Below are positions 1 through 42,710 of a stretch of 42,710 nt of DNA, piece by piece (the stretch's first letter is position 1; every line of letters starts with the position of its first letter). The position numbers and the translations under genes are program-made. Source of the DNA: a virus; IMG/VR virus record IMGVR_UViG_3300005294_000005, positions 1-42,710 of that record. One strand, 5' to 3'. The notes under the pieces were generated by a model that saw nothing but the letters and a program-made list of their open reading frames with translations, searched no databases and had not been told where the DNA came from.

Positions 1-46
1 CCTGCCGTTCGGCCATCAAGTGGTACGAAGCCTCGGTGCTGAAGAA
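1..46. repeat. Terminal direct repeat, left copy
   Basis: The first 46 bases are identical to the last 46 (42665-42710). An open reading frame continues without a shift across the join. This is what an assembled circular or circularly permuted phage genome looks like. A true short physical terminal repeat is less likely, because the repeat lies inside a gene. Confidence 0.95.
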
Positions 47-389
47 GCCCGCTGCAACCTTGGCGCAGAACTCCGGGGCCTATCAGCACGAGATCCAGGA
101 CGGGGAGACGGCACTGCTGTTCAACGACCCCCAGGAGTTCGAAGATAAGCTGGGTCTCCTGATCGAGAATGCCAAGCTGAGGAAGACGCTGGCTTCCAAC
201 GCCAAGGACTGGCTGAGCGAGAACCGCGACGCGATGAAGGAAGTGCCGAAACTGGTCTCCTTCTGGGAGCAGTTGAGAGAAGACAGGAAGAAGGAGCAAC
301 CCCACGTCTCGGACGAGCAGTGGGCAGAGATCGAGGCTGAGGCGAGGGCGGAAGAAGCATCCACCAACGGGGTTCTCCAGCCCGCATAA
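1..389 (+). CDS. GT4-like glycosyltransferase, C-terminal part (continues 41752..42710)
   Basis: This is the 3' end of the gene that starts at 41752. Joined across the terminal repeat, the gene is 1,302 nt and encodes 433 aa. The reading frame enters at base 3 and ends with TAA at 387-389. The segment carries the end of a GT-B Rossmann domain typical of family 4 glycosyltransferases: a conserved run with KWYEASVLKKP, then an invariant-style stretch where the donor sugar nucleotide is bound (QDGETALLF), and a helical C-terminus. The next gene starts 9 bp downstream behind a good AAGGAG site. See the entry at 41752 for the rest. Confidence 0.85.
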   Translation, partial: CRSAIKWYEASVLKKPAATLAQNSGAYQHEIQDGETALLFNDPQEFEDKLGLLIENAKLRKTLASNAKDWLSENRDAMKEVPKLVSFWEQLREDRKKEQPHVSDEQWAEIEAEARAEEASTNGVLQPA

Positions 390-17037: not shown

Positions 17038-17169
17038 AGGTGTCTCCGACGAAAACAGGGTGAGAAATCCCCCACGGATCTCCCACCCCCGTGCGTTCTC
17101 GGTTTTCCTACCGTCCTTACCTCATACCGAATCCCCAGTTGAGAAGGAACAGCGTTGCGGCCCATCAAA

Positions 17170-17274: not shown

Positions 17275-17300
17275 ACCCTAACCGCTCCGCTTCCTCCGCT

Positions 17301-17628: not shown

Positions 17629-17629
17629 G

Positions 17630-22729: not shown

Positions 22730-22890
22730 TCGTTGGCCTTTTCAGGAAAACTGTACAAGCCCGTGGCCCCTGGAAACTGCTCGGCATACCACTGATCGGT
22801 CCCTGGCACGGCTTGAGACTTGGGCTCGGTGAGGATCTGAGCAGCCAGGAGGAAGGCTGCTCCTAGGAGTAAGTCACGGACTAGTTTCAT
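22726..22890 (-). CDS. Small exported or membrane protein, 54 aa
   Basis: ATG 22890 overlaps the previous stop and its own stop overlaps the HNH start. An N-terminal hydrophobic segment (LVRDLLLGAAFLLAAQIL) follows MK, giving a signal or anchor; the remaining 34 residues are polar. A site GGAGGGCAGGAGAC precedes the start. Confidence 0.55.
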   Translation of the reverse strand: MKLVRDLLLGAAFLLAAQILTEPKSQAVPGTDQWYAEQFPGATGLYSFPEKANE

Positions 22891-23135
22891 GTCTCCTGCC
22901 CTCCAGTAGCGGCACCCCCCTCAAGGGAGAACGGGATATTGCCTTCGTTGTCGGCATCGATGAACGCGGCTTCCCAAGACTTCCCGGCCCCGCATATGCG
23001 GCTAGACGAGACGGCGGGGTTGTAGTAGTAGCCGACGCGGTAGCGTGCGAGCGGGGAGCTTCGCGCTCCAACCCACGCGCGGCCCTTGTGGCCCCAACGC
23101 CGCCGCGCCTCTTTCAGCGCTTCCGCCTTGGTCAT
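22887..23135 (-). CDS. Small hypothetical protein, 82 aa
   Basis: ATG 23135 overlaps the upstream stop. A basic helical start (KAEALKEARRRWG) is followed by a beta-rich region with YRVGYYYNPAVS. It may bind nucleic acid, but no family is recognised. Confidence 0.6.
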   Translation of the reverse strand: MTKAEALKEARRRWGHKGRAWVGARSSPLARYRVGYYYNPAVSSSRICGAGKSWEAAFIDADNEGNIPFSLEGGAATGGQET

Positions 23136-23461
23136 TGGCTCCCTCCAGTAGCGGCACGGATGGCCGCTTCGGCACGGTCGAAGGCGAGCGCGAAGGCTTC
23201 GGCGTCCACGTCCTGGCAGCGCCGGTCGCCATGCTCCACCAAGTCCCGCAGCGCCTCCAGCAAGGCAGGGGCTTGGGCAATCAGGCGGGCGTTGGCTTGT
23301 ACGATCTCATCGGTGCGGCCCACAGCAAGGGAGCGACCTACCACGATAGCGACTGCTTCGCGCGTGGCGCGCACCTGCCTAGCGCCATCGTACGAACCAA
23401 TGGAAGGCTCCTCGGTCCACGGTCCTGGCGTGTGTGCACTCTCTCGGCTCTTGGTAGTCAC
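23132..23461 (-). CDS. Ead/Ea22-like phage protein, 109 aa
   Basis: A GTG start at 23461 behind GGAGGTGAAGTC is preferred and overlaps the upstream stop. It contains ANARLIAQAPALLEALRDLV (residues about 60-79), the pattern found in Ead/Ea22-like early phage proteins. The function of that family is not settled. The flanking regions are helical. Confidence 0.65.
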   Translation of the reverse strand: MTTKSRESAHTPGPWTEEPSIGSYDGARQVRATREAVAIVVGRSLAVGRTDEIVQANARLIAQAPALLEALRDLVEHGDRRCQDVDAEAFALAFDRAEAAIRAATGGSQ

Positions 23462-23619
23462 GACTTCACCTCCGCGTCTGCGGTTCCTTTGCGGCGCTTG
23501 TCGGCGCATTCCTCGCAAATGGGCGCGTATCCAGGCCATTGATACGCAGGTCGCCCGCAATCCACGCACGGCCGCTCGCGCGTCGGGGCTTCGGGCAAGA
23601 TTGGCTCATGGCGTTTCAT
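23458..23619 (-). CDS. Small CxxC zinc-ribbon protein, 53 aa
   Basis: ATG 23619 is preferred over an upstream start because of GGGAGGTCAAACC. CVDC and CEEC (about 18-21 and 35-38) give a classical four-cysteine ribbon. The C-terminus is Lys/Arg-rich. It overlaps both neighbours by 4 bp. Confidence 0.6.
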   Translation of the reverse strand: MKRHEPILPEAPTRERPCVDCGRPAYQWPGYAPICEECADKRRKGTADAEVKS

Positions 23620-23828
23620 GGTTTGACCTCCCATGCCTCGTCGCACGTAACGCAGGCCCACAGATTTTCGGGTGGCGCGCTCCGTCCATCCTCCGAATGC
23701 TTGACTTGGCGCAAGTCACGACGGCAAAGCGGGCACGTCTTGAGCGCAAGCAAGGCGTTGTGGAGCGCGGCCTTATCTATTTCATCGAAGCGGCTATTAT
23801 CGAATCCTAGCGGATTCTTGGTAGTCAT
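23616..23828 (-). CDS. CxxC zinc-ribbon protein, 70 aa
   Basis: ATG 23828 overlaps the preceding stop. A helical front (IDKAALHNALLAL) leads into CPLC and CVTC (about 32-35, 59-62), a split zinc ribbon. Its role is unknown; it sits between two other small proteins of the same type. Confidence 0.6.
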   Translation of the reverse strand: MTTKNPLGFDNSRFDEIDKAALHNALLALKTCPLCRRDLRQVKHSEDGRSAPPENLWACVTCDEAWEVKP

Positions 23829-24034
23829 CGGGTGGCCCCTTCCTGCTTGGCGAAGTGGTCGCGAATGGCTTGGGCGACTTCGTGAGACTCGGCCGGTTCC
23901 CATGCCTTCGGATTGTCCAGGAAGTACTTCACGCGATCGGCCACGGCGAAGGACTCGCGGTCGACGGTGCGCTGGCCGTTGACGTACAGGCTCCAATAAC
24001 CATCCTCGCGGCGAATCTCGGTCTTGAGGCTCAT
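23825..24034 (-). CDS. Small hypothetical protein, 69 aa
   Basis: ATG 24034 lies one base from the upstream stop. Beta-rich N-terminal part (GYWSLYVNGQRTVDR) and a helical C-terminal part (EVAQAIRDHFAKQEG). No family is recognised. Confidence 0.6.
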   Translation of the reverse strand: MSLKTEIRREDGYWSLYVNGQRTVDRESFAVADRVKYFLDNPKAWEPAESHEVAQAIRDHFAKQEGATR

Positions 24035-24196
24035 TTATCGGCCTTCCTTCCGGGCTTCGCAACGCTCGCAAATCAAGCGGCCGTCAGAGTCTTTGCCCAC
24101 GCGCTCATGGAGGCTCATAAACTGGACGTGACATGCGGCGCACGCGCCCATATAGGGCGAGGAACCGCGAATATCTCCCAAGGTTCGCAGGTTCAT
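24035..24196 (-). CDS. CxxC zinc-ribbon protein, 53 aa
   Basis: ATG 24196 starts 3 bp after the upstream stop. Cysteine pairs CAAC and CERC (about 19-22, 44-47) make a zinc ribbon within a protein that also has HVQFMSLHERVG. It is one more small metal-binding protein at the start of the leftward block. Confidence 0.6.
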   Translation of the reverse strand: MNLRTLGDIRGSSPYMGACAACHVQFMSLHERVGKDSDGRLICERCEARKEGR

Positions 24197-24199
24197 GGC

Positions 24200-24505
24200 T
24201 CAGGCTTCCTTCCGGGTAGACTCGACTGGGACATACTTCCGCCCATGCTGCACGGCGAGGATCTTGTCGCGCGTGCCCAAGGTCCAAGGCGACCCCATGC
24301 TCCGAGAGGTTCGCATGAGGATGAAGCATGGCTGCCAGCCAGTGGTCACGCTCACGCGGCCGGTTAGGACCATGCCGCATGTCTCGACCTTGATGCGCTG
24401 GCCAGAGTCGAAAAACCGCGCGAAACGCAAGTCAAGTCCCGACTCCGAGAAGCGCGGGCCATACTCTTTGCGTTTCCGCTCCAAAAGCTCCTGGTAGCGG
24501 CTCAT
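24200..24505 (-). CDS. Hypothetical protein, 101 aa
   Basis: ATG 24505 overlaps the upstream stop. A charged helical N-terminus (RYQELLERKRKEYG) is followed by a beta-rich domain with VTTGWQPCFILM and TLGTRDKIL. Its end (HGRKYVPVESTRK) echoes the end of the neighbour at 24502-24696 (KDGMEFVPVHAQEG), suggesting related small domains. Confidence 0.6.
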   Translation of the reverse strand: MSRYQELLERKRKEYGPRFSESGLDLRFARFFDSGQRIKVETCGMVLTGRVSVTTGWQPCFILMRTSRSMGSPWTLGTRDKILAVQHGRKYVPVESTRKEA

Positions 24506-24696
24506 GACTGCCTGCCTTCCTGAGCATGGACCGGGACAAACTCCATCCCGTCCTTCTGGGCACGGATAGCGTCGAGGGTAGAAAGGGCAAAGCGCTCGCC
24601 CGAGTCGAAGCACATGCGGTAGGGAGCTTCGGGCCAGACTTGAAGCTCGTACGCGTTGCTGGGTTCGATCCATCCCTTTTGCGTGGCTTGGCTCAT
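24502..24696 (-). CDS. Small hypothetical protein, 64 aa
   Basis: ATG 24696 follows GGAGGAACAA. It is the first gene fully downstream of the leftward promoter at 24733-24761. It is Trp/Pro-rich at the N-terminus and has a helix (STLDAIRAQKDG). The C-terminal FVPVHAQ motif resembles that of the neighbour. Confidence 0.6.
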   Translation of the reverse strand: MSQATQKGWIEPSNAYELQVWPEAPYRMCFDSGERFALSTLDAIRAQKDGMEFVPVHAQEGRQS

Positions 24697-24732
24697 TTGT
24701 TCCTCCGGGTTGGTTTCCAGTCCAACACTGAC

Positions 24733-24761
24733 AGTATGAGGCAACAGCCCTACCCTGTCAA
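24733..24761 (-). promoter_or_regulatory. Leftward early promoter, TTGACA-N17-CATACT
   Basis: The -35 TTGACA (24761-24756) is perfect, the spacer is 17 bp, and the -10 is CATACT (24738-24733). A TGACAG (24729-24734) and CTGTCA (24755-24760) inverted pair brackets the two boxes, so an operator may overlap the promoter. The predicted start is near 24726, about 30 bp before the first complete downstream gene. It is likely the main source of the leftward transcript. Confidence 0.65.
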
Positions 24762-24872
24762 GGGGTGTTTGAGAGTCAGTGCTTCAGTCAGGGAAGAGGC
24801 GAAGCAAGCATGGCCGTCGGGCCACTGCACGACTAACCCGTAGCGTCCACAGTCCAGCACTCGTGCATTCAT
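24750..24872 (-). CDS. Small hypothetical protein upstream of the main promoter, 40 aa
   Basis: ATG 24872 sits behind GGAGG with a 6-base spacer. The 40 aa product is compact and plausible (RVLDCGRYGLVVQWPDG). Its 3' end overlaps the promoter at 24733-24761, so it must be expressed from farther upstream. The support is the ribosome site and composition. Confidence 0.5.
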   Translation of the reverse strand: MNARVLDCGRYGLVVQWPDGHACFASSLTEALTLKHPLTG

Positions 24873-25362
24873 CTCAGGCCTCCAAGGTTCGAGTCTGAGC
24901 CTAGGTAAGAGCCAGTCTCATGCCAGACCCCAGGCAAAGACTTACAGCCCCTCCTAGGGGAAACCAAGGGCACTACGCAACGTCTGAGCTTGCACTCCGC
25001 AACGCGCTGCCAGGCGGAGGTGGAGAGGGGCCAGCGATGGATCAAGGCTCTCCTGCCTACGCAACACCTTACGGTTCTAGGCGTTGAGTTAGAGGAGGCC
25101 AGATGCGGTGTAGATGGAAACCGATACAGCAACAGCCTCTCATGTGACCACGCTGTCACGTATGCCAAGGCTAGAGGTTATGTGGTTTATCCAACGCTTG
25201 ACCATGCTTGCAGCCGCACCAGCAGCGGCTAGGGTGGCGTACGCACCCCACCACGAAAGCGGGGGTTGCGACAGACCCAAACGCGCTCTATGCCAGATTT
25301 TTGGGAGTAAAACGGCGTACCAGTTATTGAATCTGGCACGTCAATCTGGCATACTGGCACGT
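24873..25362. other. Divergent non-coding control region, about 490 bp
   Basis: No convincing gene lies between the leftward gene start at 24872 and the rightward start at 25363. It holds a short frame with a good ribosome site (AGGAGG at 25093-25098, ATG 25103, 14 codons), a GTGAC/GTCAC palindrome (25143-25158), a 6 bp hairpin AGCCGC/GCGGCT (25212-25230), a DnaA-box-like TTATCCAAC (25187-25195), and the repeat cluster and promoter at its right end. It is a candidate control region or origin. Confidence 0.5.
25327..25355 (+). promoter_or_regulatory. Rightward promoter in repeats, TTGAAT-N17-CATACT
   Basis: The -35 TTGAAT (25327-25332) and -10 CATACT (25350-25355) have a 17 bp spacer and the same -10 as the leftward promoter. 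Predicted +1 falls at the ATG at 25363, so the message may be leaderless. Repeats cover the promoter, as if a repressor or activator binds across it. Confidence 0.5.
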
Positions 25363-25380: not shown

Positions 25381-25767
25381 AGTATCTGCGACAAGCCGGG
25401 GTGTACGGGGTCGAGCACGTGCAAGGAGTGCCGGGCGATATACCGGCGGATGAAGCGGGCGGGCGCGCAGGGCGTAGACCGGTCTCCAAAACCAGTCGCG
25501 GGAGGTTCGAGTCCTCCGCCCGCCGCCATTCAGGCTGATCCCGAGCCGTTGCCGACACCGCCGCCTGTGGCTAAAACAGCGAGGGAGATCATGGGAGCGA
25601 TAAAACCGAGGAGTGGGGACCCGATCGGGGACTGGAACCGTCTCCAACCTTCCCTAGAGGGGGTGTGCTGTGCGGCGCAGGTGCATGGGGTGCAGTGCGG
25701 GAAGCAGGCGGTGTGGTGGGACGGGCCGTTGGCGCACTGTGAGGAACACAGGTTGGGTGCGTCGTGA
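25363..25767 (+). CDS. Small Cys-rich protein containing a tRNA-like insert, 134 aa
   Basis: The start is uncertain: ATG 25363 has no ribosome site but matches a leaderless promoter; ATG 25591 (Met77) has GGGAG just upstream; and the frame is open back to 25114. The N-terminal part has C residues in CDKPGC and CKEC (about 9-23). The C-terminal part has CCAAQ, QCGKQ and HCEEH. The stretch that overlaps the tRNA-like gene is Pro/Gly/Ser-rich. The next GTG overlaps its stop. Confidence 0.5.
   Translation: MARTRLSICDKPGCTGSSTCKECRAIYRRMKRAGAQGVDRSPKPVAGGSSPPPAAIQADPEPLPTPPPVAKTAREIMGAIKPRSGDPIGDWNRLQPSLEGVCCAAQVHGVQCGKQAVWWDGPLAHCEEHRLGAS
25458..25528 (+). tRNA. tRNA-Trp(CCA)-like gene with a reduced D arm
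   Basis: A perfect 7 bp acceptor stem (25458-25464 with 25518-25524), a discriminator G and encoded CCA (25526-25528) are present. The T arm is perfect, with GGAGG/CCTCC and loop TTCGAGT (25501-25517). The anticodon arm has 4 of 5 pairs and loop CTCCAAA, with anticodon CCA (25486-25488). Only 14 bases separate acceptor and anticodon arm, so the D arm is at most a 4 bp stem with a 3-base loop. It lies wholly within an open reading frame. A functional tRNA, an attachment-site relic or a decoy are all possible. Confidence 0.6.
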
Positions 25768-28691: not shown

Positions 28692-28850
28692 ATGATGGGT
28701 CGCCCCGCAGTCCCTAGAAGGAAGCCGATTGTGAAGCAAGTCACCGACGACATCGTCGAAGGCGGCAAGAAACTAATCGACGAGGGCAAGCAAGCCGTCG
28801 GCAAGGTCAAAGAGGGCTTCCGAAAAACCAAGAAGTTCCTGGGAGGCTAG
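28692..28850 (+). CDS. Small basic protein with related MGRPAVP start, 52 aa
   Basis: ATG 28692 (or 28695) behind TAGGAGGCC. The opening MGRPAVPRRKP matches the neighbour at 28401-28685, then a charged amphipathic helix follows (VTDDIVEGGKKLIDEGKQA). The GTG of the next gene overlaps its stop. It is probably a duplicated N-terminal signature. Confidence 0.55.
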   Translation: MMGRPAVPRRKPIVKQVTDDIVEGGKKLIDEGKQAVGKVKEGFRKTKKFLGG

Positions 28851-29398
28851 TGGTAGACGGTCCCAAGGTCCTCTCCCTCGAAGAGATTCTTCACGGCCTC
28901 TCCGACCTCGCCCGTAACGGCGACGGAGCCCAGCAGACTCAAGCCTACCGTATGCTGCTGGCCCAGAAAGGAGGTTCGGCCGCTACCCTGGGTGACTTAC
29001 TCAACGACGAAGACATCGTCGAACGCCTCAGTAGATTGATGAAGCCGGCCGGTAGAGAGTTGTGCAAGGTCGCCTACCACCGCGCCTTCGGCAAAGCACG
29101 AGACGAGATCAGCGCCCAGCCCAACCTCACCGCCGAACTGCTGCACCCCGACCTCATAAAACAGGTGGAAGGCATCGGTTCCCTAAGAGACCTGTACCGG
29201 TTCCGCCCTGAGATCAAGCGTCCCGGTGTCCCCAAGGGCTACCCCATGCACAAGGGCAAGGTGGTCCAGAAGCGCTGGTGCCAGAACCAGGCGATTAAGA
29301 TATTGTTGGACGAAGAAGCGGCACGGATGCAGGAACTCGAAGACAGGGACGAAGATGCCGAGAGCGAGGAGGCTGGTACGCCCTCCCAGACACCATAA
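28850..29398 (+). CDS. Probable terminase small subunit
   Basis: A 182 aa protein with a GTG start overlapping the previous stop. The N-terminal half is helical (LEEILHGLSDLARNG, TQAYRMLLAQKGG), then a basic/aromatic zone (PEIKRPGVPKGYPMHKGKV) and an acidic C-terminus (EDAESEEAG). Its position directly before the large subunit, overlapping its 5' end by 44 bp, and its size fit a terminase small subunit. A helix-turn-helix is not obvious, so the call rests on context. Confidence 0.6.
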   Translation: MVDGPKVLSLEEILHGLSDLARNGDGAQQTQAYRMLLAQKGGSAATLGDLLNDEDIVERLSRLMKPAGRELCKVAYHRAFGKARDEISAQPNLTAELLHPDLIKQVEGIGSLRDLYRFRPEIKRPGVPKGYPMHKGKVVQKRWCQNQAIKILLDEEAARMQELEDRDEDAESEEAGTPSQTP

Positions 29399-31091
29399 CA
29401 AGCCCACCCACTGGGACTACCAGGCCGAGATCGAGCTACTTCGACACTTCTGCCGGGTGGACTTCTGGACTTTCTTCCTCTACGCCTTCGGTGCGGGTCT
29501 TAACCCCAGAGCCAGACGCTGGGTCAAGTACGACCTCCACTACCCCATCGCTCAGTGGTTCCAGGAACACGTCGATCAGTGGTTCCACTGGCGCAGAAAC
29601 GGGGTAGGGCGCAAGAAAAACCTCGCCATTCTGGTCCACCGTCGGATCGGTAAGACGACTCAGATCACCCGCGCCGGCCAGTTATGGCTCCACGTCCGCG
29701 ATCCCGAGTCTGCCACCGCGACAGGTTCTGAAAACCTGATCCTAAGCGGGAAGATGCTGGACGCCATGAAGGCGGTGATCGATGGCTCCGACCCTCACGC
29801 CTTGTTCACCAAGCTGTTCGGCAACTGGGCCACCGATGCGAGAAGCTGGACTGGCAAGCAGGTGGTCCACGTCGCCCGTCGCAACACCTCCAGGCAGGAC
29901 CCCAGCCTTAGCACCTTCGCCGTCGAGACCTCTATAGTCGGCAGTCACCCCGACGCCGTCTTCTACGACGACCCGATCTCTTACGAGGCGATCCAGAAGG
30001 ACACCGGCTGGGTCAGCACGGTGGTGGATCAGGCCAGCTCGCTGTTTCCGGCACTTGAGTCTGACGCCCTGATCGTCTGGATCGGCACCCGCTACTCCTC
30101 GATGGACCACTTTGGCAGCACCATGGTGGATGAGGGGGTGGCAGACGTAACGGGTATGAGCCAGGAGTCCGGATTCGACATCAACCCCGACGGTATCTGG
30201 CACGTCTACTTCCTCGCCGGAAGAGACTCTGAGGGTAAACCCACCACCCCTCATATATGGCCCGAAGGCGAGATGAAGCGCTATGAGAAGTTGAAGCCTC
30301 TGAGGTTCGCCGCCCAGGTCTTGAACAACCCCCAAGAGTCAGAAACCAACCCCATCACCGCCGACCAGATCAGACAGTGCATCGTCAAGAAAGACGAGGT
30401 CCCTTGGGGGATGCTCTCCTATGCCATCACCTGTGACACTGCCTTTGCGACTGGTGCCAAGCAGGTAGGCAAGGACGAGACGGTGATGATCGTCCACGGA
30501 TACCCCAGAGACGGGTCTGGACTTGTGTACGTCATCGAAGGCTACGGCTCCAAGACCTGGCGTGCAGAAGACTTCGCCAAGCTCTTGGTGAGCACGGTGC
30601 AGCGCTACAGACGCCAAGGGAAGAAGATCCTCGCCATCACCGACGAACGCGAGACGAGTAAGCACGGATCTTGGAAGATCGCTCTCGCCAACTACTTCGC
30701 TGAAGCCAACGAGCCGATGCCGGCCTTCCACCAGTTCGACCGCTGGAAGATGCAGTCGAAGCGTGACCGCATCCACGGGGCCACCATGTTCTGGGTGGAC
30801 GGCAGGGTGAAGATCATCGAGAACGCCCCCGGCTCAAGAGAACTCATGGCCCAGCTATCTCAAGTAGGTGAGATTATGAGCAACCCCAAGATGAAGAACG
30901 ACTGGGTAGACGCTCATGCCGATGCGTTCGAGTACCCGATCTACCAACCCGCGAGAAGGCTTCCGAACCAAAGAGCCCCGTGGGAGAGAGGTGCTCAACC
31001 GCTGGATATGGACGGGCTGGATCGCAAGCTATTCTACGACGACGAGTCGAGTCAGTGGGAGAGAGACAACCCCAGGGAGCCTTTAAGATAA
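29355..31091 (+). CDS. Terminase large subunit (packaging ATPase-nuclease)
   Basis: A 578 aa protein from ATG 29355, which lies inside the end of the small-subunit gene. The ATPase has a Walker A-like VHRRIGKTT (Gly99, Lys100) and a Walker B region AVFYDDP (Asp205-Asp206). The RNase H-fold nuclease acids appear at Asp361 (ITCDTAF), Asp430 (AITDERE) and Asp519/Asp523 (DWVDAHADAF). It pumps DNA into the prohead through the portal. It is followed, unusually, by a sugar-gene cluster rather than by the portal. Confidence 0.92.
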   Translation: MPRARRLVRPPRHHNKPTHWDYQAEIELLRHFCRVDFWTFFLYAFGAGLNPRARRWVKYDLHYPIAQWFQEHVDQWFHWRRNGVGRKKNLAILVHRRIGKTTQITRAGQLWLHVRDPESATATGSENLILSGKMLDAMKAVIDGSDPHALFTKLFGNWATDARSWTGKQVVHVARRNTSRQDPSLSTFAVETSIVGSHPDAVFYDDPISYEAIQKDTGWVSTVVDQASSLFPALESDALIVWIGTRYSSMDHFGSTMVDEGVADVTGMSQESGFDINPDGIWHVYFLAGRDSEGKPTTPHIWPEGEMKRYEKLKPLRFAAQVLNNPQESETNPITADQIRQCIVKKDEVPWGMLSYAITCDTAFATGAKQVGKDETVMIVHGYPRDGSGLVYVIEGYGSKTWRAEDFAKLLVSTVQRYRRQGKKILAITDERETSKHGSWKIALANYFAEANEPMPAFHQFDRWKMQSKRDRIHGATMFWVDGRVKIIENAPGSRELMAQLSQVGEIMSNPKMKNDWVDAHADAFEYPIYQPARRLPNQRAPWERGAQPLDMDGLDRKLFYDDESSQWERDNPREPLR

Positions 31092-31100: not shown

Positions 31101-32318
31101 ATGGCAACCGTGTTCAAGGCCAAGGAAGGCGTGCTGGAAACCCGCGAGCAGACAGTTTACAAACCTAGGCTGACGTGCAGGGCCTGCGGGGATGCTGGCC
31201 TTCAGCCCATCCTTTCCCTCGGCGAGCAGTACCTGGTGAGATTTCCCAAGGATATCGACCTCGACCTTCCGCGAGCCCCACTGAACCTGGTGCGCTGCGG
31301 ATTCTGTGGGTTGCTCCAGTTGGGCGAAACCGTCGATCCCGACTTGCTGTTCAAGCGTTTCTGGTACCGGACTTCGATCAACGACTCGATGCGTCTGGCG
31401 ATGAAGGACATCGTCAGGCACGGCTTGGAGTACCACGATGGCGGTAGTTGGCTCGATATCGGGGCCAACGACGGTTATCTGCTCTCCTGCGTCCCCGGAG
31501 CCTTTACCAAGATCGCCTGCGAGCCGGCCCAGAACCTCGAAGACCGGTTGCACGACGTAGCGGACCTGGTGATTTCCGACTACTTCACCCCAGACAAGGT
31601 GGACCGCCAGTGCCAGGTGATCACCTCTGTGGCGATGTTCTACGACCTCGACAACCCGGGCGAGTTCGTGGCTGGGGTGGCCAAGTGCCTGTCTGAGGAT
31701 GGGATCTGGATCAACCAGTTGAACGACTCCCCCACCATGTTGAAGGCCAACGCTTTCGACTCGATCTGCCACGAGCACCTGTGCTACTACGACGTTCACA
31801 CCCTGAAGACGCTCTACGCCGCCCACGGACTCACCCTGACCGAGATCCGGTTCAACGACGTGAACGGCGGAAGTGTCAGGACGATCGCCCGGAAGTCGGG
31901 GATGTCGCTCGGACTCTTGGATGTCCCCAAGGTCAGACTGGAAGACTGTGAAGCCTTCGCCGAACGCACCCAACGCTGGAAGCAGATGGCCACCGACCTC
32001 ATAAGGGGGCCTTTAGCCCTCGGAGGTCCGCTTTGGGTTCTGGGGGCTTCCACCAAGGGCGCAGTCCTACTTCAGTACCTCGACTGCGACGATGCCTTTA
32101 TCGGGGTGGCCGACAGAAACCCCGACAAGGCTGGATGCCTGATGGTGGGCTCATGGCTGCCGATCACCGATGAACTCACCCTGCGGTCGGAGAAGCCCAA
32201 GTACGGCTTGGTGCTGCCCTGGGCCTTCCGGAACGAGATCGTGGCCAGGGAGGCAGCCTTGCGACGCTCAGGCACCACCCTGATCTTCCCGCTGCCGAGC
32301 CTTGAGTTCGTGCTCTAG
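31101..32318 (+). CDS. SAM-dependent sugar C-methyltransferase (TylCIII-like)
   Basis: A 405 aa protein behind AAGGAG. The domains are in the order of NDP-sugar C-methyltransferases: an N-terminal zinc-binding domain (Cys26, Cys29, Cys66, Cys69), a SAM-binding domain with WLDIGANDG (Asp119-Gly125), an active-site HEHLCYY (His224, Glu225, His226, Tyr229-230), and a C-terminal domain with WVLGASTKG. The length matches TylCIII and its relatives. It likely transfers a methyl to a carbon of a nucleotide-activated hexose. It starts the sugar cluster. Confidence 0.85.
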   Translation: MATVFKAKEGVLETREQTVYKPRLTCRACGDAGLQPILSLGEQYLVRFPKDIDLDLPRAPLNLVRCGFCGLLQLGETVDPDLLFKRFWYRTSINDSMRLAMKDIVRHGLEYHDGGSWLDIGANDGYLLSCVPGAFTKIACEPAQNLEDRLHDVADLVISDYFTPDKVDRQCQVITSVAMFYDLDNPGEFVAGVAKCLSEDGIWINQLNDSPTMLKANAFDSICHEHLCYYDVHTLKTLYAAHGLTLTEIRFNDVNGGSVRTIARKSGMSLGLLDVPKVRLEDCEAFAERTQRWKQMATDLIRGPLALGGPLWVLGASTKGAVLLQYLDCDDAFIGVADRNPDKAGCLMVGSWLPITDELTLRSEKPKYGLVLPWAFRNEIVAREAALRRSGTTLIFPLPSLEFVL

Positions 32319-32489
32319 ATGAAAGTCGTGGTGTTCTTGAAGCGCGGGGCCAGTCTGGCCTATGAAGACGCTCGGGTGACTCCGGCCAGCACGGCCACTC
32401 CTTACTACGTGGTTGTCCTGAAGGAAGGGCTGGTCTATTTCGACAAGGACTCGGTTGAACGCATCATGGAACTCAAGGAGGAAGCATGA
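32319..32489 (+). CDS. Small hypothetical protein in sugar cluster, 56 aa
   Basis: ATG directly follows the previous stop. Begins with a strand KVVVFLKRG and has YYVVVLKEGLVYFDK, then a short helix. No family is recognised. The coupled overlap with its neighbours places it in the cluster operon. Confidence 0.5.
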   Translation: MKVVVFLKRGASLAYEDARVTPASTATPYYVVVLKEGLVYFDKDSVERIMELKEEA

Positions 32490-32641
32490 AGAGAAGCCTG
32501 TTCAAGCTGATCACCGAGTTGAAGTCCCGCCCCGCCACCCCGGAAGAGGTCCAGACGCTGATCGAAGCCATCAAGGCCCAGGAGAAGGCAGTCAAGATCC
32601 AGGCGTTGAGATCCCAACTCAAGGCTCTGACCGCCGCGTGA
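32486..32641 (+). CDS. Small helical protein in sugar cluster, 51 aa
   Basis: ATG 32486 overlaps the previous stop and follows AAGGAGGAA. It is an all-helical peptide (SLFKLITELKSRPA, EEVQTLIEAIKAQEKA). The next gene begins with a GTG overlapping its end. It may assist or anchor its larger neighbours. Confidence 0.5.
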   Translation: MKRSLFKLITELKSRPATPEEVQTLIEAIKAQEKAVKIQALRSQLKALTAA

Positions 32642-33282
32642 ACGGTAAGGTTTTGGTGGTCATTCCTAGCCGCGACCGTCCGGTACACGCCTATTCCGCG
32701 ATGGTTTCAGCCAACTCTCCCCAGTCAGACGTGAAGATCTACGTCGATGACGACCAGCGCGACCTCTACAAGGACCTGATCGAGTGTCACGGTGAAGACC
32801 GGGGGTGGTGTGTGGTTGGACCGAGGGTGGGTCCAGTAGCTGCCGCCAACCAGGTTATCGAGCAAAACCCAGAGTATTCGGCCTACGGTCTGATCACCGA
32901 CGACTCCAGGATCACCACCAAGGACTGGGCGACATGGCTGCTCGAAGCCTTTTCCCAGTGCCCCAACCAAGTTGGGGTGGTGAGCCCCTACCACAACCAC
33001 GGGAACCATGTGGACATGCCGTTCGTGTCCCAAGCGTGGTTGAAGGCGGTGGGGTGGTTCGCCTGCCCTGACTGTTACCACTACTGCTGGCCGACCATCA
33101 CCGGACTGATCGGAGAGATGAGCGCCATCGTTCATGCCCCGATGCAGAAGTTCGCCATCGAGCATGCCGACCACGCCCAAGACCACGCCAAGCAGGTAAG
33201 GGACGCCCAGCCGTTCTACGAGTTCGTGAGCCTGAAACTCCCCCCGGTGGTGGAGCGGGTCAGAAGTGCGATGTACTCGTGA
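32638..33282 (+). CDS. GT2-like glycosyltransferase (GT-A fold)
   Basis: A 214 aa protein, GTG overlapping the previous stop. It opens with a strand and a PSRDRP motif, then IYVDDDQ with a DxD-type metal/UDP site, VVGPRVGPVAAAN, TDDSRITTKDW, and a later AVGWFACP...HYC segment. These features fit a GT-A nucleotide-sugar transferase of the GT2 type, although shorter than many. The gene at 34112-34741 is its relative. It probably transfers one sugar of the glycan. Confidence 0.7.
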   Translation: MNGKVLVVIPSRDRPVHAYSAMVSANSPQSDVKIYVDDDQRDLYKDLIECHGEDRGWCVVGPRVGPVAAANQVIEQNPEYSAYGLITDDSRITTKDWATWLLEAFSQCPNQVGVVSPYHNHGNHVDMPFVSQAWLKAVGWFACPDCYHYCWPTITGLIGEMSAIVHAPMQKFAIEHADHAQDHAKQVRDAQPFYEFVSLKLPPVVERVRSAMYS

Positions 33283-34115
33283 ACTTCTGGCTGGCCAAGA
33301 GAGTCCATGTAGCCGGTGCCTCGGGTTTCATCGGTCGGCACTGCGTCAAGGAGTTGCTGGCCCGAGGGGCGGTTGTGGTGGGAGGGATCGATCACGCCGT
33401 GGACATGGTGATCAACCTCGCCGCCAAGACGGCTGGGATCGGTTATGCCTCAAGTCACCACTCGGAGATGCTACGGAAAAACCTGGAGATTTCGACGCAA
33501 GTCATCGAAAGAGCACGGATAGCCAACGTCCCGACCTTCGTCGTGGTGTCCTCAGCCTGTGTCTATTCCGACCAGGCACAGAGCCCGATGCCTGAGAGTC
33601 TGGGGATGGTGGGGAGTCCAGTCGAAGCCTCCAAAGGCTACGGCTGGGCCAAGCGCATTGCCGAGGTCCAGGGGATGATGTACGCCGAGGAGTACGGGAT
33701 GAGAGTCCCCATAGCACGCCCATTCAACGCCTACGGGCCGGGAGATGTTTCCGGGCATGTCATCCCAGACTTGCTGAGGAAGATCGATGCTGGTGGAGCC
33801 TTGGAGGTCTGGGGAGGCGACCAGACGCGCTCGATGACCTATGTTACCGACTGGGTGGACGCTTTGCTGCTGATTGCCGAACATGGCCCTAGTGGTCAGC
33901 CGGTCAACCTGGCGGGGACCGAGTCTGGGGTGCGGATCTCCGATCTAGCCAGGGTTCTGGCCGGAGACGACCGTCCTATCATCTCGCAGCCCGGGGTTAT
34001 AGGCCATCACGACCGCCGACCCGACTTATCCTGGCTCAAGTCCCAAGGCTGGACCCCAAGAGTGGTACTGGAGGATGGATTGAAGATGACCAAGGACTGG
34101 TGGCGCAGCCGATGA
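33279..34115 (+). CDS. GDP-fucose-synthase-like NAD(P)-dependent epimerase/reductase
   Basis: A 278 aa protein, GTG overlapping the previous stop. An extended short-chain dehydrogenase: GASGFIG (Gly13, Gly16, Gly19), SSACVY (Ser91-Ser92), YGWAK (Tyr121, Lys125), FNAYGPGD, and His160 in GHVIP. The order follows GDP-L-fucose synthases, with the AKTAGIG segment like AKVGGI. It is about 40 residues shorter than WcaG (321 aa), with the loss near residues 30-45. It most likely makes an activated deoxysugar for the cluster. Confidence 0.8.
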   Translation: MNFWLAKRVHVAGASGFIGRHCVKELLARGAVVVGGIDHAVDMVINLAAKTAGIGYASSHHSEMLRKNLEISTQVIERARIANVPTFVVVSSACVYSDQAQSPMPESLGMVGSPVEASKGYGWAKRIAEVQGMMYAEEYGMRVPIARPFNAYGPGDVSGHVIPDLLRKIDAGGALEVWGGDQTRSMTYVTDWVDALLLIAEHGPSGQPVNLAGTESGVRISDLARVLAGDDRPIISQPGVIGHHDRRPDLSWLKSQGWTPRVVLEDGLKMTKDWWRSR

Positions 34116-34741
34116 GCTTGGCCATCGTCTGTCCTTCTCGTGGCAGGCCGGTAGTGTTGAAGCGCATGATTGCCTCGGCCCTTTCGACTTCCAGCGCCGA
34201 TGTCCTGATCTACTTGGACTCGGATGACGACGAGACCTATGACCTGATCGACAGCCCCCGGGTCAAGGTGGTGGTCGGGCCGCCGATCGGTAGAGGCAGG
34301 GCGATCAACGCTCTTTGCGACCAGTACCGGGACTACCGCATGTACCTCTTGTTTTCGGACGACGCGGTGTTCGTCAGACAGAACTGGGACTTGGAAGTCG
34401 AGGAGGCGATGGACAGTTTCGGAGACGACATTGGCTTGGTTCACCTCTCGATGGGGATTCCCGAAGCCTGGGTCAACTGGCCGATCGTGAGTCGCAAGTG
34501 GTTGGACGCAGTGGGGTGGTTCAACTTCCCCAAACTCACCCACTACTGCCAGGACACGGTGCTCCAAGCACTAGCTGAGGCGATCGGAAAGATCCGCTAC
34601 ATAGAACCTTTGGTGGTGGGTCACGAAGCTCTATGGCCGGAAGACGGGGCCAAGCGGATCAGCGCCGATGCTCAGCAGTTTCTGTGGTTTTTCGCCAAGG
34701 ACTTCGGTCCCACGTTGAAGAAACTCCGGGCGGCAACATGA
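34112..34741 (+). CDS. Second GT2-like glycosyltransferase, related to 32638
   Basis: A 209 aa protein; ATG 34112 overlaps the previous stop. PSRGRP, IYLDSDDDE (DxD site), VVVGPPIG, SDDAVFVRQNWD, and SRKWLDAVGWFNFP...HYC run in the same order as in the gene at 32638, so they are duplicates, now with an epimerase gene between them. It likely adds a different sugar or linkage. A short basic tail ends the protein. Confidence 0.7.
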   Translation: MSLAIVCPSRGRPVVLKRMIASALSTSSADVLIYLDSDDDETYDLIDSPRVKVVVGPPIGRGRAINALCDQYRDYRMYLLFSDDAVFVRQNWDLEVEEAMDSFGDDIGLVHLSMGIPEAWVNWPIVSRKWLDAVGWFNFPKLTHYCQDTVLQALAEAIGKIRYIEPLVVGHEALWPEDGAKRISADAQQFLWFFAKDFGPTLKKLRAAT

Positions 34742-35373
34742 GCGTCTATCGCGTCAACGCCCCCAAAACCCTGCCCCCGAACAACGAGATCCCCTATCTG
34801 GTGGCTCAGCACTTCCCCCAGGGTTTCAGGGGTTACGCCATCGATGTCGGGGCTTCGGATGGGAAGTACATCAACTCGACTTATCTCCTGGAGCACATGG
34901 GCAAGTGGACAGTGGTATCGGTCGAGGCCAACCCGATGCTGAAGCCCCTGTTGCTGGAAAACCGGGCCTGGGTGGAGATGTGTGCCTGTGGCTCCAAGCC
35001 GAAGGACGATGTGGACTTCCACGTCAACCTCGACAACCTCGAAGCCTTTTCGTCACTCATTCCTCAGAAAACCCATCGGCGCTTCAAAGAAGAGGCCGGG
35101 GACAGGTGGGAGAAGGTCAAGGTCAACGTCAGAACGGTGGATCAACTGATCGAGAAGTGGCAGTTTCCGAGGTTAGACGCTTTGTTCGTGGACGTCGAAG
35201 GCACCGAACGTGACGTGCTCGAAGGCTGCGACTTGGCTAAGTGGAAGCCCAAGGTGGTGGTGGTGGAGTCCTGGGACGAAGGCAGCCATGATGTTTACTT
35301 GGAGTCCTTTGGTTATCGCCGCTACGCCAAGTCAGCCGAAAACGACCTCTATGTGAGGGGAGACGAGATGTGA
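34738..35373 (+). CDS. FkbM-family SAM methyltransferase
   Basis: A 211 aa protein with an ATGA start. The motifs IDVGASDG (36-42), VSVEANP and LDALFVDVEGTERDVLEGCD match FkbM methyltransferases, which add O-methyl groups, often to glycans. The length is usual for a stand-alone domain. In this cluster it most likely caps a sugar with methyl. The next gene overlaps its stop. Confidence 0.82.
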   Translation: MSVYRVNAPKTLPPNNEIPYLVAQHFPQGFRGYAIDVGASDGKYINSTYLLEHMGKWTVVSVEANPMLKPLLLENRAWVEMCACGSKPKDDVDFHVNLDNLEAFSSLIPQKTHRRFKEEAGDRWEKVKVNVRTVDQLIEKWQFPRLDALFVDVEGTERDVLEGCDLAKWKPKVVVVESWDEGSHDVYLESFGYRRYAKSAENDLYVRGDEM

Positions 35374-36263
35374 GCCAGACCGTTATGACCTTCCCAGGGA
35401 AGTTAGGTGACGCCCTCCACCAGTTTCCAGTGGCCTACTGGTGGGCACGGCAGACCGGCAAGAAGTTCACGGTATGGATGGACGAGAAGACCTGTGCTCC
35501 TTTGAAGCCGCTGTTCGAGGCCCAGCCTTGCGTGGAAGGGGTGGAGTTCAAGCCCGGGATCGCCCACTACAACTGTGGCGGTCAGCCTTGGCACTTCGAC
35601 CTTCCGACCTCGGAGTACGAGGGCAAGAACGTCTACCACTTGGGTTTCAGGTCGATGCCGGTCAGGCAGTTGACGCTAGAAACCCTGGAAAGTGCCAAGG
35701 TCCCTTTGGACACCATCACTGAGGACGATCTGGCCAACACCCCATGCCTTGAAGTCGAGCCGGCCGACCAGGTGACGATCCTGAAAGACGGCGCTCCGCT
35801 GGTGATCACCCTGGGGCAGAAGCGCCTGTGTCTACTTCATGGACAGGCAGTCTATGCTCACACCAAGAGCACGCCGGGGTTCTGGAAGTTCCTGGCCGGC
35901 GTTGAGAGCTACCTGACTCGCGAGTTCGACGAGGTGATCTTCATCGGCAACAACCGGGATCGCGAGGTGGCCCTGCGGACCTACCCCCACTGGTCCTCCT
36001 ACGACGACGCTGGAGACTTCCTGAGCCTTGCCAGGCTGATGGTACGGGCCAGCCTGGTGATAGGGGTAGGGTCGAGCCCGATCGCCCTCGCTGGGGCATT
36101 GAAGGTGCCTTCAGTGAGGGTCCACGACCCGATCGGTGAGAACGCCAAGGTGATCTGGAGCAACCTCCAGCCGGCGCATCTCAACGCGACCGAGATCGAG
36201 CTACGCAAGGAGTGGCCAGCCTTCCGCGACCGCTACCTCAAGAGCGAGGTGAGCGTTGTCTGA
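35370..36263 (+). CDS. GT9/heptosyltransferase-like glycosyltransferase
   Basis: A 297 aa protein, GTG overlapping the previous stop. N-terminal FPGKLGDALHQFPVAYWW (8-25) and C-terminal ASLVIGVGSSPIALAGAL (about 226-243) followed by DPIGENAKV are like the two Rossmann halves of ADP-heptose-type transferases, in a shortened form. The substrate may not be heptose. It ends the sugar cluster. Confidence 0.65.
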   Translation: MSQTVMTFPGKLGDALHQFPVAYWWARQTGKKFTVWMDEKTCAPLKPLFEAQPCVEGVEFKPGIAHYNCGGQPWHFDLPTSEYEGKNVYHLGFRSMPVRQLTLETLESAKVPLDTITEDDLANTPCLEVEPADQVTILKDGAPLVITLGQKRLCLLHGQAVYAHTKSTPGFWKFLAGVESYLTREFDEVIFIGNNRDREVALRTYPHWSSYDDAGDFLSLARLMVRASLVIGVGSSPIALAGALKVPSVRVHDPIGENAKVIWSNLQPAHLNATEIELRKEWPAFRDRYLKSEVSVV

Positions 36264-36498
36264 AACCCTGGGAGGGCTGGTGGATAAGCTGATCACCAAC
36301 AACACCAAGTTGTGGTTCACCCAGGCCAAGGCCCATGATGCCGCTCAGAAGGGCGAAGGGCTGGATGCGGAGACGGTGGCTCGGCTTCACAGCCTGAACC
36401 TGATGCGGAACGAGTTGATGTCTGAGATCGACGTACTTCTGGCTAAGGCGGTAGAAAGTGGCCAAGCAGATGTGGACCCCCGCATCAAGATTGTGTAG
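36256..36498 (+). CDS. Small helical protein before portal, 80 aa
   Basis: A TTG at 36256 overlaps the previous stop. The sequence is helical and charged (LVDKLITNNTKLWF, LHSLNLMRNELMSEI). It lies 27 bp ahead of the portal gene, which has its own AGGAGGGTC site. Its role in head assembly is likely but unproven. Confidence 0.55.
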   Translation: MSETLGGLVDKLITNNTKLWFTQAKAHDAAQKGEGLDAETVARLHSLNLMRNELMSEIDVLLAKAVESGQADVDPRIKIV

Positions 36499-36525: not shown

Positions 36526-38442
36526 ATGGCGCAAGGCAAACTACCTGACGGCAGGATCGAGCGCCCGCGTGAGTACCCCTCGTGGGAGCGGGTCATCGAG
36601 TTGGTCGATAGCCGCAGGCAGGATAGTCTCCGGTATAACTCCGCCCTCTTCAACAAACTCTCCGACTATTACCGCGCCTACCGTGGAGTCTGGCAGGGTC
36701 GTTTAGCCCAGTTCCGTAACAACATCTCGATCCCCTTCACCTTTGCCATGATCCAGTCGGATGTGGCGAGAAAGGTCCAGACTTCCTTCGGAGCCTGGCC
36801 GATTGTGGGATTCGAGGGCTACGCACCGGAAGACGCATCAAGGGCCAAGAAGAACGAAGTCCTGATTTCGGCCCAGATGCAGGACTGTGACTCCGCCACC
36901 AAGGCGGTGGACTTCTTCCTCCAGGCGGACATCTGTGGAACTGCGATCGCCCGCTGGGGATGGAAGAACCTCACCCGCAAGAACCGCTACCGCAAACTGG
37001 AGCAGATCGGCCCTGGTTTCTCGATTCCCGTGGTCTATACCGAGGAGTCGGAGATTTTCAACGGTCCCAACTGGGAAGTGGTGGACCGTCTAGATTTTTG
37101 GCAGCAGCCGGCACGCAAGTCGATCGACGAGATGGACTGGGTGATCCACAGGTACTGGGCCGACCTCGACAACCTGATGGACGACGCCAACGGGGACTAT
37201 CCTTACTTCGATCCCTCATCGGTGAGGATGCTCAAAGACTTCCCGATGACGGGGACTCAGTCAGCCGACTTCATGCAGAGGAAGCTCACCTTCCGAAACG
37301 ACTATGACTACATGGAGCGCTTGAAAGAGCGCTTCGCCAAGCCGGTCGAGATCTGGGAGATGCACGGCCTGGTGCCGAGCGAGTTCGCCACTGACGGTCT
37401 CCGGCACCGCTGCATCGCCGTCGCCAACGAACGGGTAGTGCTGAAGAACCGCGAAGGCCCGATGGCCAACCAGCAAAAGCCCTTCGCTTCCTACTCTCCC
37501 ATGAGAGATCCCTACGGGTTCGACGGCATCGGCAAGGCGGAGATCGCCTACGGCCCTCAGAGGACGGCCGATCGGCTCAACAACCAGAAACTCGACGCCA
37601 TCGATCTCTTGATCGACAACCAGTGGGTGGTGAGCAACACCGCTAACATCAACACCCAGAACCTGTTCAGCCGCACCGGGCGCATCATTATGGTGGATGG
37701 CCCGGCCGACGACACCACCATCCGGCCGTTGAGCCCGGACATGCGTAACGTCCAGATCGGCAACCAGGAGATCGGCGAACTCTTCAACTTCATGCAGCTA
37801 GGAACCGGCGAGACCGACTCTCTGCTCGGTGTGGGCACGAGTTCGAGGGAGACGGCGAGAGGCTTCCTGGGGCGACAGGAGAACGCCCTGACGCGCCTGA
37901 GCATGGAGTCGCGACTGGCGGATATCTGGGTCGAGACGATCGCCAACGCTTTCCGCCACATGGACAAGCTGTGGCTGCCGCTTCCCCAGGAGAGGAAGAT
38001 CCTGGGTTCAGTAGCGACGGTCGATCCCATCACTGGGCTCCCCTACCCCGAACAGGTGACCGAGATCGACTACGACGACCTGGCCCCCGACTACACCGCC
38101 CGCGCGGTGGGGTCGAGCCAGATGACGGGCAGGAACGTCAGGCAGCAAAACTGGATGCAGCTACTCCAGGTGCTGTCAGCCAACCCAGCGATGATGCAGT
38201 TGGTCAACTGGGCCAACTTCGCGCGCCAGACCTTCGAGTTGTTCGACTTCAAGAACGTCAACGACCTCCTGGTGACTCAGGTTCCCTTGGTGAACCAGCT
38301 AGCCACTGAGAACGGGATGAACCCCCAGGCGGTGGCCGGGGCAGTCTCGCAGCCGCTCAACCAACTCAACCCTGAAGTCTTGGGGCAGTTGATGCAGACC
38401 CAGCAAACCAGCCCGATTTCCATGGCGGGCATGACGGGGTGA
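36526..38442 (+). CDS. Portal protein
   Basis: A 638 aa protein behind AGGAGGGTC. Long helical sections with a beta-rich middle and motifs typical of podovirus head-tail connectors (NNISIPFTFAMIQSDVARK, about 65-83; DFFLQADICGTAIARWGWK, about 127-145). The C-terminus is Gln/Asn-rich. Portal dodecamers form the DNA channel and bind the terminase. The order portal, small protein, scaffold, capsid is standard. Confidence 0.8.
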   Translation: MAQGKLPDGRIERPREYPSWERVIELVDSRRQDSLRYNSALFNKLSDYYRAYRGVWQGRLAQFRNNISIPFTFAMIQSDVARKVQTSFGAWPIVGFEGYAPEDASRAKKNEVLISAQMQDCDSATKAVDFFLQADICGTAIARWGWKNLTRKNRYRKLEQIGPGFSIPVVYTEESEIFNGPNWEVVDRLDFWQQPARKSIDEMDWVIHRYWADLDNLMDDANGDYPYFDPSSVRMLKDFPMTGTQSADFMQRKLTFRNDYDYMERLKERFAKPVEIWEMHGLVPSEFATDGLRHRCIAVANERVVLKNREGPMANQQKPFASYSPMRDPYGFDGIGKAEIAYGPQRTADRLNNQKLDAIDLLIDNQWVVSNTANINTQNLFSRTGRIIMVDGPADDTTIRPLSPDMRNVQIGNQEIGELFNFMQLGTGETDSLLGVGTSSRETARGFLGRQENALTRLSMESRLADIWVETIANAFRHMDKLWLPLPQERKILGSVATVDPITGLPYPEQVTEIDYDDLAPDYTARAVGSSQMTGRNVRQQNWMQLLQVLSANPAMMQLVNWANFARQTFELFDFKNVNDLLVTQVPLVNQLATENGMNPQAVAGAVSQPLNQLNPEVLGQLMQTQQTSPISMAGMTG

Positions 38443-41532: not shown

Positions 41533-41752
41533 GGTAGCGCCGAAGAAGAGGATGCCCATGGCCCGGGCGGGGAACTACGTCGCCCCAGTGGACACGGTGG
41601 GGATGGACCCGGAGATGAAGTCCAGCCTGACCGGCACGCCGATGAACAAGGTGGAGAAGGCATACGTCCAGGGCACAGGGAGAAAGTCGGCGGTAGAGGC
41701 TGTGAGACGCGCCAGGCGCGCAAACAAGGCACCACTCCTCAAGGAGGATTAG
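41525..41752 (+). CDS. Small basic protein, 75 aa
   Basis: ATG 41525 within the end of the preceding gene is the most plausible start; a longer frame is open upstream. It is Lys/Arg/Ala-rich (EAVRRARRANKAPLLKED at the end), and likely binds nucleic acid or capsid. Its stop overlaps the glycosyltransferase GTG. Confidence 0.55.
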   Translation: MARVAPKKRMPMARAGNYVAPVDTVGMDPEMKSSLTGTPMNKVEKAYVQGTGRKSAVEAVRRARRANKAPLLKED

Positions 41753-42710
41753 TGGCGAAGCCGCTGACCATCTACACCGTTTGGCCGCCCAAGGCGACGG
41801 CAAGTTTCTACTACCGGATCGGTGTCCCGGTTTCGACCGCCCAGGATCTTGGACTCAACGTCAGGTCGATCATCGACCAGAACCTGGTGGACGTGTCGCC
41901 GATGGACCGTATCCGAAACTTCTGCGAGTCGGACTTGATCATCCTCTACCAGCCGGTGGGTGAGTCGGTGATCCAGCAGATTCGCGGAGTGCAGTCGTTC
42001 CTGGTATCGAGACGTGACGATGGCTGGAAGTGGCCGCCCTCGGTGATGCTGGAGACTGACGACAACCTGTTCAACGTCAGCCCCCTGAACCAAGCCTTCA
42101 AGAACCTCGGCATCCGCGACATGAACGGCACCATGATCCCTCCCGGCCACCATATCGGTGTGATCTCCAACGGCGAGAAGAAGGTGCTATGGCGTGACGG
42201 GGAGGCTGACTTCTCGATTCTCCGTAACCGCCAGACGCTGGGGACGTGGAAGTCCTTGCTGGAGATGGCGGATGCGGTGGGGTGTTCGACCCCGGCGGTG
42301 GCCAAGGCAATCGAGAAAGAGGCCAACGTCAAGCGCGTCAAGATCCATCCCAACCTGGTCCGGTTCGACCACTACGAGCAAGTGGACTTGAAGGAAACCG
42401 ACAAGATCAAAATCCTGTGGCAAGGCGGCATCGCTCACTACGAGGACTTCTATCCTCTAAGAGAGGCGTTCGGGAATGTCACTCGCAAGTACCCTGAGGT
42501 TCACTGGATCATCTGGGGGGCGCAGTTCCCCTGGGTGAAAGAGTTGATCCCCGCCCATCGTTACACTTTCAAGGACTGGTGCCCTTACCCCGAGTACAAG
42601 CTGAGACTGGCGATGGTGGGGCACGACATCGCGATCGCCCCACTCCAGGAAAACGTCTTCAACACCTGCCGTTCGGCCATCAAGTGGTACGAAGCCTCGG
42701 TGCTGAAGAA
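41752..42710 (+). CDS. GT4-like glycosyltransferase, N-terminal part (continues 1..389)
   Basis: GTG 41752 overlaps the previous stop (TAGTG) and follows AAGGAGG. Joined with 1-389 it is 433 aa. The N-terminal half opens with a strand (PLTIYTVWPPKATASFYY) and includes LETDDNLFNV. The acceptor half has KILWQGGIAHYEDFYPL and PEVHWIIWGAQFPW (about 225-260). The C-terminal half has HDIAIAPLQEN (about 291-301), IKWYEA and DGETALLF, the GT4 signature. It is a second sugar transferase in the late block, far from the cluster at 31101, and likely works with it. Confidence 0.85.
   Translation, partial: MAKPLTIYTVWPPKATASFYYRIGVPVSTAQDLGLNVRSIIDQNLVDVSPMDRIRNFCESDLIILYQPVGESVIQQIRGVQSFLVSRRDDGWKWPPSVMLETDDNLFNVSPLNQAFKNLGIRDMNGTMIPPGHHIGVISNGEKKVLWRDGEADFSILRNRQTLGTWKSLLEMADAVGCSTPAVAKAIEKEANVKRVKIHPNLVRFDHYEQVDLKETDKIKILWQGGIAHYEDFYPLREAFGNVTRKYPEVHWIIWGAQFPWVKELIPAHRYTFKDWCPYPEYKLRLAMVGHDIAIAPLQENVFNTCRSAIKWYEASVLK
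42665..42710. repeat. Terminal direct repeat, right copy
   Basis: Identical to 1-46. Together they close the circle; see the entry at 1. Confidence 0.95.

Follow-up and report, generated by a model that had tools for sequence, protein, structure and literature searches.

What are genes for sugar modification doing between the terminase and the portal gene of a phage? The question is raised by IMG/VR record IMGVR_UViG_3300005294_000005, analyzed here over its whole length of 42,710 bp (the window), which carries, on the plus strand at positions 31101 to 36263, six intact sugar enzymes and two small open reading frames (ORFs) between terL and portal, with a third small gene, orf80, next in line (Table 1). 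The enzymes are a sugar C-methyltransferase (CMT), two GT2-like glycosyltransferases (GT2a and GT2b; glycosyltransferase, GT), an epimerase (EPI), an FkbM-type methyltransferase, and a GT9-like GT; a GT4-like GT gene lies farther along. This cluster is a fixed feature of a phage lineage, with a conserved frame (CMT, GT9, and GT4) and a variable middle, and we consider it probable that the locus, part of a late operon, makes a methylated glycan that is placed on one or more virion proteins.

The evidence for a lineage-wide feature comes from relatives that were collected by the portal alone. This gave 58 loci, a profile scan with the portal alignment added a few more (all from the same lineage, none below about 60% identity), and deduplication left 27 contigs spanning terL to portal. 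CMT and GT9 are present in all 27, and GT4 in all 22 contigs that span capsid to adaptor, between those genes, so that its earlier assignment to the same set holds. The cluster opens with CMT and closes with GT9, apart from a few relatives in which a GT2 stands behind GT9 and one in which a GT2 stands ahead of CMT. The remaining genes vary: members of the FkbM family occur in 26 of the 27 relatives, some upstream of terS rather than in the terL-portal gap, GT2 in 20, and orf80 in 14. The most divergent members, L038, L042, L045, and L047, carry extra GT2 and FkbM genes upstream of terS; most of their genes of these two kinds stand there, and a nearly bare CMT-GT9 pair is left between terL and portal.

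In distant cultured relatives, chosen by a related portal or capsid, terminase and portal are adjacent (Lsp-JY17 and Venkman) or have one small gene between them (phiM5), which bears out the normally fixed gene order assumed in a first, sequence-only reading of the window. That reading understated the case by describing an interruption in a single phage, and the decayed island with broken genes that it had named as counterevidence was not seen among the relatives, where the frame is intact and universal. Its enzyme types agree with structure prediction and family searches, and all the genes are present and intact; however, its gene list missed orf56 and orf51, which separate CMT from GT2a, as well as the DUF4254-like orf80. 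The proposed coupling by overlapping stop and start codons is found at all seven junctions between orf56 and orf80 (4 nt each, and 8 nt at GT9/orf80), whereas the CMT stop codon abuts the start of orf56. A Shine-Dalgarno-like AAGGAG lies ahead of CMT, after the end of terL at 31091, and scans of this region for promoters and terminators gave matches no better than chance. A literature search found no description of FkbM or GT genes between terminase and portal.

Inheritance of the frame follows that of the structural genes. The CMTs of the lineage form one clade (support, 100/99), and CMT and GT9 distances track those of terL, portal, and capsid (rho, 0.38 to 0.62; Mantel p, 0.001 to 0.002), in the range in which the latter three correlate among themselves (0.28 to 0.53). 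Across dozens of contigs the reading frames stay open, with a dN/dS of 0.04 to 0.33 that shows purifying selection, so that the cluster cannot be due to chance. A recent-island origin was also rejected, since the GC content of the cluster (58 to 61%) is like that of the remaining genome and the cluster is common to the relatives. The middle behaves differently: the portals of L033 and L050 are 94.6% identical at the nucleotide level, yet L050 has an additional GT2 and FkbM, and L012 and L013 (92%) differ by one GT2. This gain and loss would suit passing cargo (morons) that the phage tolerates at a hotspot and from which the virion gains nothing, as would the related modules in unrelated large phages and the different history of the CMT of one more distant phage, L172. 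Nevertheless, the CMT, GT9, and GT4 frame is found in every relative under purifying selection, and we regard mere cargo as very improbable.

L172 itself (portal 37% identical; a search with this portal returned only L172) also has GT9, DUF4254, FkbM, and CMT genes in its terL-portal gap, in a different order. Its GT9 is nearest to the GT9s of the lineage, but its CMT is nearest to that of the large phage L174 (47%), and a single clade with the lineage CMTs, as expected from simple common descent, was rejected (approximately unbiased test, p = 0.017). The differing histories of the two genes indicate that the L172 cluster is a mosaic.

Which activities does the frame encode? CMT shows the full TylCIII architecture, consisting of the Methyltransf_13 zinc domain, the S-adenosylmethionine (SAM) domain, and the Methyltransf_14 domain in that order (Pfam Methyltransf_13, 23, and 14 at E values of 1.7e-24, 6e-12, and 3.2e-11, all over cut-off), and its profile matches structures in the PDB at 1e-38 to 2e-55, including MycMIII (4rv9, 2e-55) and TcaB9 (3ndi, 2e-44). 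The zinc cysteines C26, C29, C66, and C69, the SAM motif, and E225 and H226 (the Glu-His pair of the YxEH motif) are invariant in 23 aligned phage rows. In L041 (CMT at L041:4119-6344), an intein of about 335 amino acids (with a match to LAGLIDADG_3 over cut-off and one to Intein_splicing, E 1e-7, that stays below it) interrupts the chain exactly ahead of the Cys in the catalytic CHEH motif, so that this phage-specific residue takes the +1 position; the terL of L061 (L061:2075-5044) likewise harbors an intein, which includes a homing endonuclease domain. Inteins are typically found at conserved positions in indispensable genes.

For the GT9-like protein, family membership was settled by structure. 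The AlphaFold2 (AF2) model (pLDDT, 91) matches Veillonella GT9 (Z, 18.1) and WaaC (Z, 18.0) over about 256 residues at a root mean square deviation (rmsd) of 3.7 to 3.8, which covers nearly the entire chain, while epimerase folds drop to a Z of 10.5 in the same search. None of 26 homologues had a Pfam match and a sequence search of the PDB returned chance matches only; given this fold without a sequence signature, we call it GT9-like rather than GT9. The protein glycosyltransferases TibC and EarP also appear among its GT-B relatives in the fold search, as might be expected if the cluster glycosylated a nonvirion protein of phage or host, for instance a defense or translation factor, in the way that EarP rhamnosylates EF-P. 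Yet a many-enzyme, fast-diversifying cluster exceeds the needs of a single regulatory modification, and its position goes with the packaging and capsid genes, so that such a target appears quite improbable.

Among the other transferases, GT2a has no Pfam match; it matches PHROG 14945 (glycosyltransferase; E 1e-9), and its AF2 model (pLDDT, 94) fits GT-A enzymes best, with the GDP-fucose-using fucosyltransferase WrtF (Z, 17.3; rmsd, 2.7; 187 residues aligned) about one Z unit ahead of the next enzyme. Its residues D88 and D89, the DD/DXD motif of the GT-A fold, are invariant. GT2b belongs to one BLAST family with GT2a and matches PHROG 14945 at 8e-19 and, below threshold, Pfam GT2 at 1e-3. GT4, downstream of the capsid genes and upstream of the tail adaptor gene, encodes 433 amino acids with a subthreshold match to Glycos_transf_1 (E 9e-5). 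The cluster enzymes of the window have no strong hydrophobic segment and, as in virion glycosylation systems, soluble phage-encoded GTs are inherited along with the structural genes. The small orf80 has a homologue in L172 (L172:4240-4527) that matches DUF4254 over cut-off (41.5 bits). Downstream of the GT9-like gene, a DUF4254 protein is thus encoded in three widely differing phage settings (the window, L172, and L174:10782-11066), which suggests that it is a partner of the GT9-like transferase.

The nature of the sugar can be approached from the company that CMT keeps. In the window, EPI matches GDP-mannose 3,5-epimerase (E 2e-29) and GDP-fucose synthase (E 1e-22) and keeps the SDR motifs GASGFIG (GxxGxxG) and Y-xxx-K125 and the SSAC cysteine. 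Other phage CMTs often have genes like those for GDP-mannose dehydratase (GMD) or FCL nearby: Synechococcus phage DSL-LC02, whose CMT is related, has the row GMD-CMT-GDP-fucose synthase-GT-GT4-FkbM, the module of L174 runs GT9-DUF4254-FkbM-CMT-FCL-MT-GMD (MT, methyltransferase), and in L177, too, CMT shares a module with FCL and GMD. C3 methylation by TylCIII-type enzymes needs a neighboring 4-keto group. From this requirement and the pairing seen elsewhere we infer GDP-4-keto-6-deoxyhexose as the substrate of CMT, pointing to a C-methylated GDP-6-deoxyhexose as the product, in line with the methylated (deoxy)sugar proposed earlier.

We therefore envisage, as the order of steps, that the host would supply a nucleotide-activated 4-keto-6-deoxysugar, most likely GDP-4-keto-6-deoxymannose, and that CMT would methylate it at one carbon, probably C3. 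The methylated sugar would then be epimerized or reduced, in the window phage perhaps by EPI and elsewhere by a host enzyme. Soluble GTs, namely, the universal GT9-like and GT4 enzymes and the variable GT2s, could assemble a short glycan in the cytoplasm, whose hydroxyls FkbM enzymes might cap with methyl groups. The core of this glycan would thus be conserved, set by the fixed frame of CMT, GT9, and GT4, and its periphery variable, owing to the quick turnover of the middle genes.

Several observations weigh against this scheme or against the virion as its target. First, no dehydratase was found in 13 near-complete genomes, where the sole GDP_Man_Dehyd-type match is the EPI of the window; the 4-keto sugar must therefore come from the host, and the idea that the phage makes the whole sugar pathway fails, the more so as EPI is peculiar to the window phage and one identical fragment (0 of 27 nonredundant relatives). 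Second, past its second strand EPI shows a gap of about 39 alignment columns, a stretch that all nine other sequences fill at least partly; about 40 residues short in its Rossmann, NAD(P)-binding half, it may be inactive. Third, although the phage CMTs share the three-domain architecture, the zinc-binding cysteines, and the Glu-His pair with the C-3' methyltransferases of antibiotic sugars, TcaB9 and MycMIII, they occur without an antibiotic pathway and, in all 23 rows, have Cys223 (Val in one row) in place of the TcaB9 Tyr and Asp182 in place of its upstream His. Both are residues that, judging by the mutant chains deposited in the PDB, we take to belong to the active site; by sequence CMT is a family member, and its chemistry may be altered relative to TcaB9. 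Fourth, the lineage has no close cultured relative: searches of 50,697 phage records with portal, CMT, and GT9 gave distant matches or none, and profile scans of 84,980 bacterial and archaeal genomes with portal and CMT found no relative, so that no prophage or host can be assigned. The CMT scan detects close kin only, as plasmids of rhizobia and Azospirillum in fact often carry CMTs at about 35% identity. Finally, late coexpression could also serve a target in the host envelope toward the end of infection.

According to this last possibility, the enzymes would alter a glycan of the host envelope (lipopolysaccharide or capsule) late in infection, for example, blocking readsorption to debris or excluding other phages. 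GT9, GT2, FkbM, and C-methyltransferases are enzyme kinds of O-antigen clusters, the plasmid-borne CMT relatives fit such a role, and soluble GTs could work on lipid-linked precursors at the cytoplasmic face. On the other hand, the 13 genomes hold no match to GtrA (PF04138), a Wzx-type flippase, or an integrase (PF00589), which disfavors serotype conversion of the Gtr type, and the cluster lies in the late operon in every relative. Altogether, we judge an envelope target unlikely. A glycan on virion proteins is most likely given that the cluster lies on one strand with the terminase, portal, and capsid genes, and the sharing of an operon with late genes, as the sequence-only reading had it, is supported. 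Its preference for virion decoration over DNA modification also stands. Phage GTs can hypermodify DNA (Pyle 2024, as summarized in PMC12619734), and sugars on phage DNA would block restriction; however, none of the 13 genomes has a member of the thymidylate-synthase/hydroxymethylase family (PF00303), which disfavors T4-type DNA glucosylation, the enzyme set is of the polysaccharide type, and the cytosine methylase of the window is distant from the cluster and on the opposite strand. DNA as the acceptor is thus hard to credit.

How does the locus compare with known glycosylation systems? Virion glycosylation in mycobacteriophages likewise relies on GTs encoded by tailed phages, though other phages and other enzyme families are involved, and we know of no C-methyltransferase frame there. 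In Che8 and Rita, it is the capsid and the tail tube proteins that bear glycans (Freeman 2023, cited in PMC12619734 and PMC11256854), and the related phage Maravista has its GT genes close to the 3' end of the genome instead of in the terminase-portal interval (PMC11256854). The large phages DSL-LC02 (OR032571; PMC10611076) and L174/L177 (105 to 125 kb) have a homologous CMT beside GDP-sugar enzymes, GTs, and FkbM, but differ in encoding their own GMD and GDP-fucose synthase; in the available text on DSL-LC02, a GT is read as acting in DNA glycosylation and CMT is not discussed (PMC10611076). In chloroviruses such as PBCV-1, the capsid glycans are made by the virus itself and consist of a conserved core and outer sugars that vary (PMC5408694, PMC7826918). 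These viruses share with the window phage virus-encoded GTs and methyltransferases and, on our reading, a GDP-6-deoxysugar pathway and the core-and-periphery design. In contrast, they are large eukaryotic viruses (about 290 to 350 kb by the sizes quoted from PMC3602175) rather than 42-kb phages, and the window phage, which encodes no dehydratase, has its genes within the packaging operon and close to it. The portal, capsid, and adaptor genes of the window are all of SU10 type and indicate a podovirus-like phage. In its most specific form, our reading is that a lineage of small podophages builds a methyl-branched glycan, its core fixed (CMT, GT9, and GT4) and its periphery swappable, as a strain-specific, chlorovirus-like virion coat, using a CMT with a changed active site, which in one relative is also the exact location of an intein; this picture is tentative, and we would put it at somewhat less than even.

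Regarding the record itself, an identical 46-nt repeat stands at both ends (1-46 = 42665-42710), and the GT4 frame is open only when this repeat is counted once, indicating a circular or permuted genome cut within GT4. A single tRNA-Trp gene was found at 25454-25528, and the minus-strand half (12099-25045) is packed with small ORFs. Among the window ORFs scanned with Pfam, a scan that was not exhaustive, no DNA polymerase, primase, helicase, or integrase was detected; only a PD-(D/E)XK nuclease-like, an exonuclease-like, an HNH, and a short C5-cytosine methylase ORF turned up.

Table 1. Features of the terminase-portal region and of GT4 (window coordinates)
Feature	Position	Strand	Description	Support
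Terminase genes	28850-31091	+		
terL	29340..31091	+	Upstream flank of the site	PHROG 38 terL, E 6.9e-41
CMT	31101..32318	+	First cluster gene; NDP-sugar C-methyltransferase, TylCIII/TcaB9/MycMIII family	Pfam, PDB profile matches
orf56	32319..32489	+	Small ORF, in few relatives	
orf51	32486..32641	+	Small ORF, in few relatives	
GT2a	32638..33282	+	GT-A fold glycosyltransferase, variable middle gene	PHROG, AlphaFold model
EPI	33279..34115	+	GDP-sugar 3,5-epimerase/GDP-fucose-synthase-like SDR	Pfam Epimerase, 1e-41
GT2b	34112..34741	+	GT2-like glycosyltransferase, variable middle gene	Weak Pfam, PHROG
FkbM	34738..35373	+	FkbM-type sugar O-methyltransferase	Pfam Methyltransf_21, E 3.6e-17 (over cut-off)
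GT9-like	35370..36263	+	Glycosyltransferase of heptosyltransferase fold, last cluster enzyme	AF2 model
orf80	36256..36498	+	DUF4254-like small protein	Pfam DUF4254, E 2e-3
Portal	36526..38442	+	SU10 type, downstream flank	Pfam SU10_portal, E 3.9e-15
GT4, 5' part	41752..42710	+	GT4-like glycosyltransferase	3' part resumes at 47-389 across record ends
GT4, 3' part	1..389	+	GT4-like glycosyltransferase	

Phage virion glycans have so far been demonstrated in few systems, which leaves room to ask what they do other than meet animal antibodies. The present lineage, for which no connection to animals is shown, has glycan machinery in every relative checked, built into the packaging and capsid operon. 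The lineage also provides a divergent family of sugar C-methyltransferases that can be assayed directly. Finally, it amounts to a natural experiment, in which the conserved core says that the coat is needed and the variable periphery says that something selects for change. Candidates for this selective reason, on the reading that the glycan coats the virion, may be the host receptor, binding to debris, host defenses that sense capsids, or competing phages.

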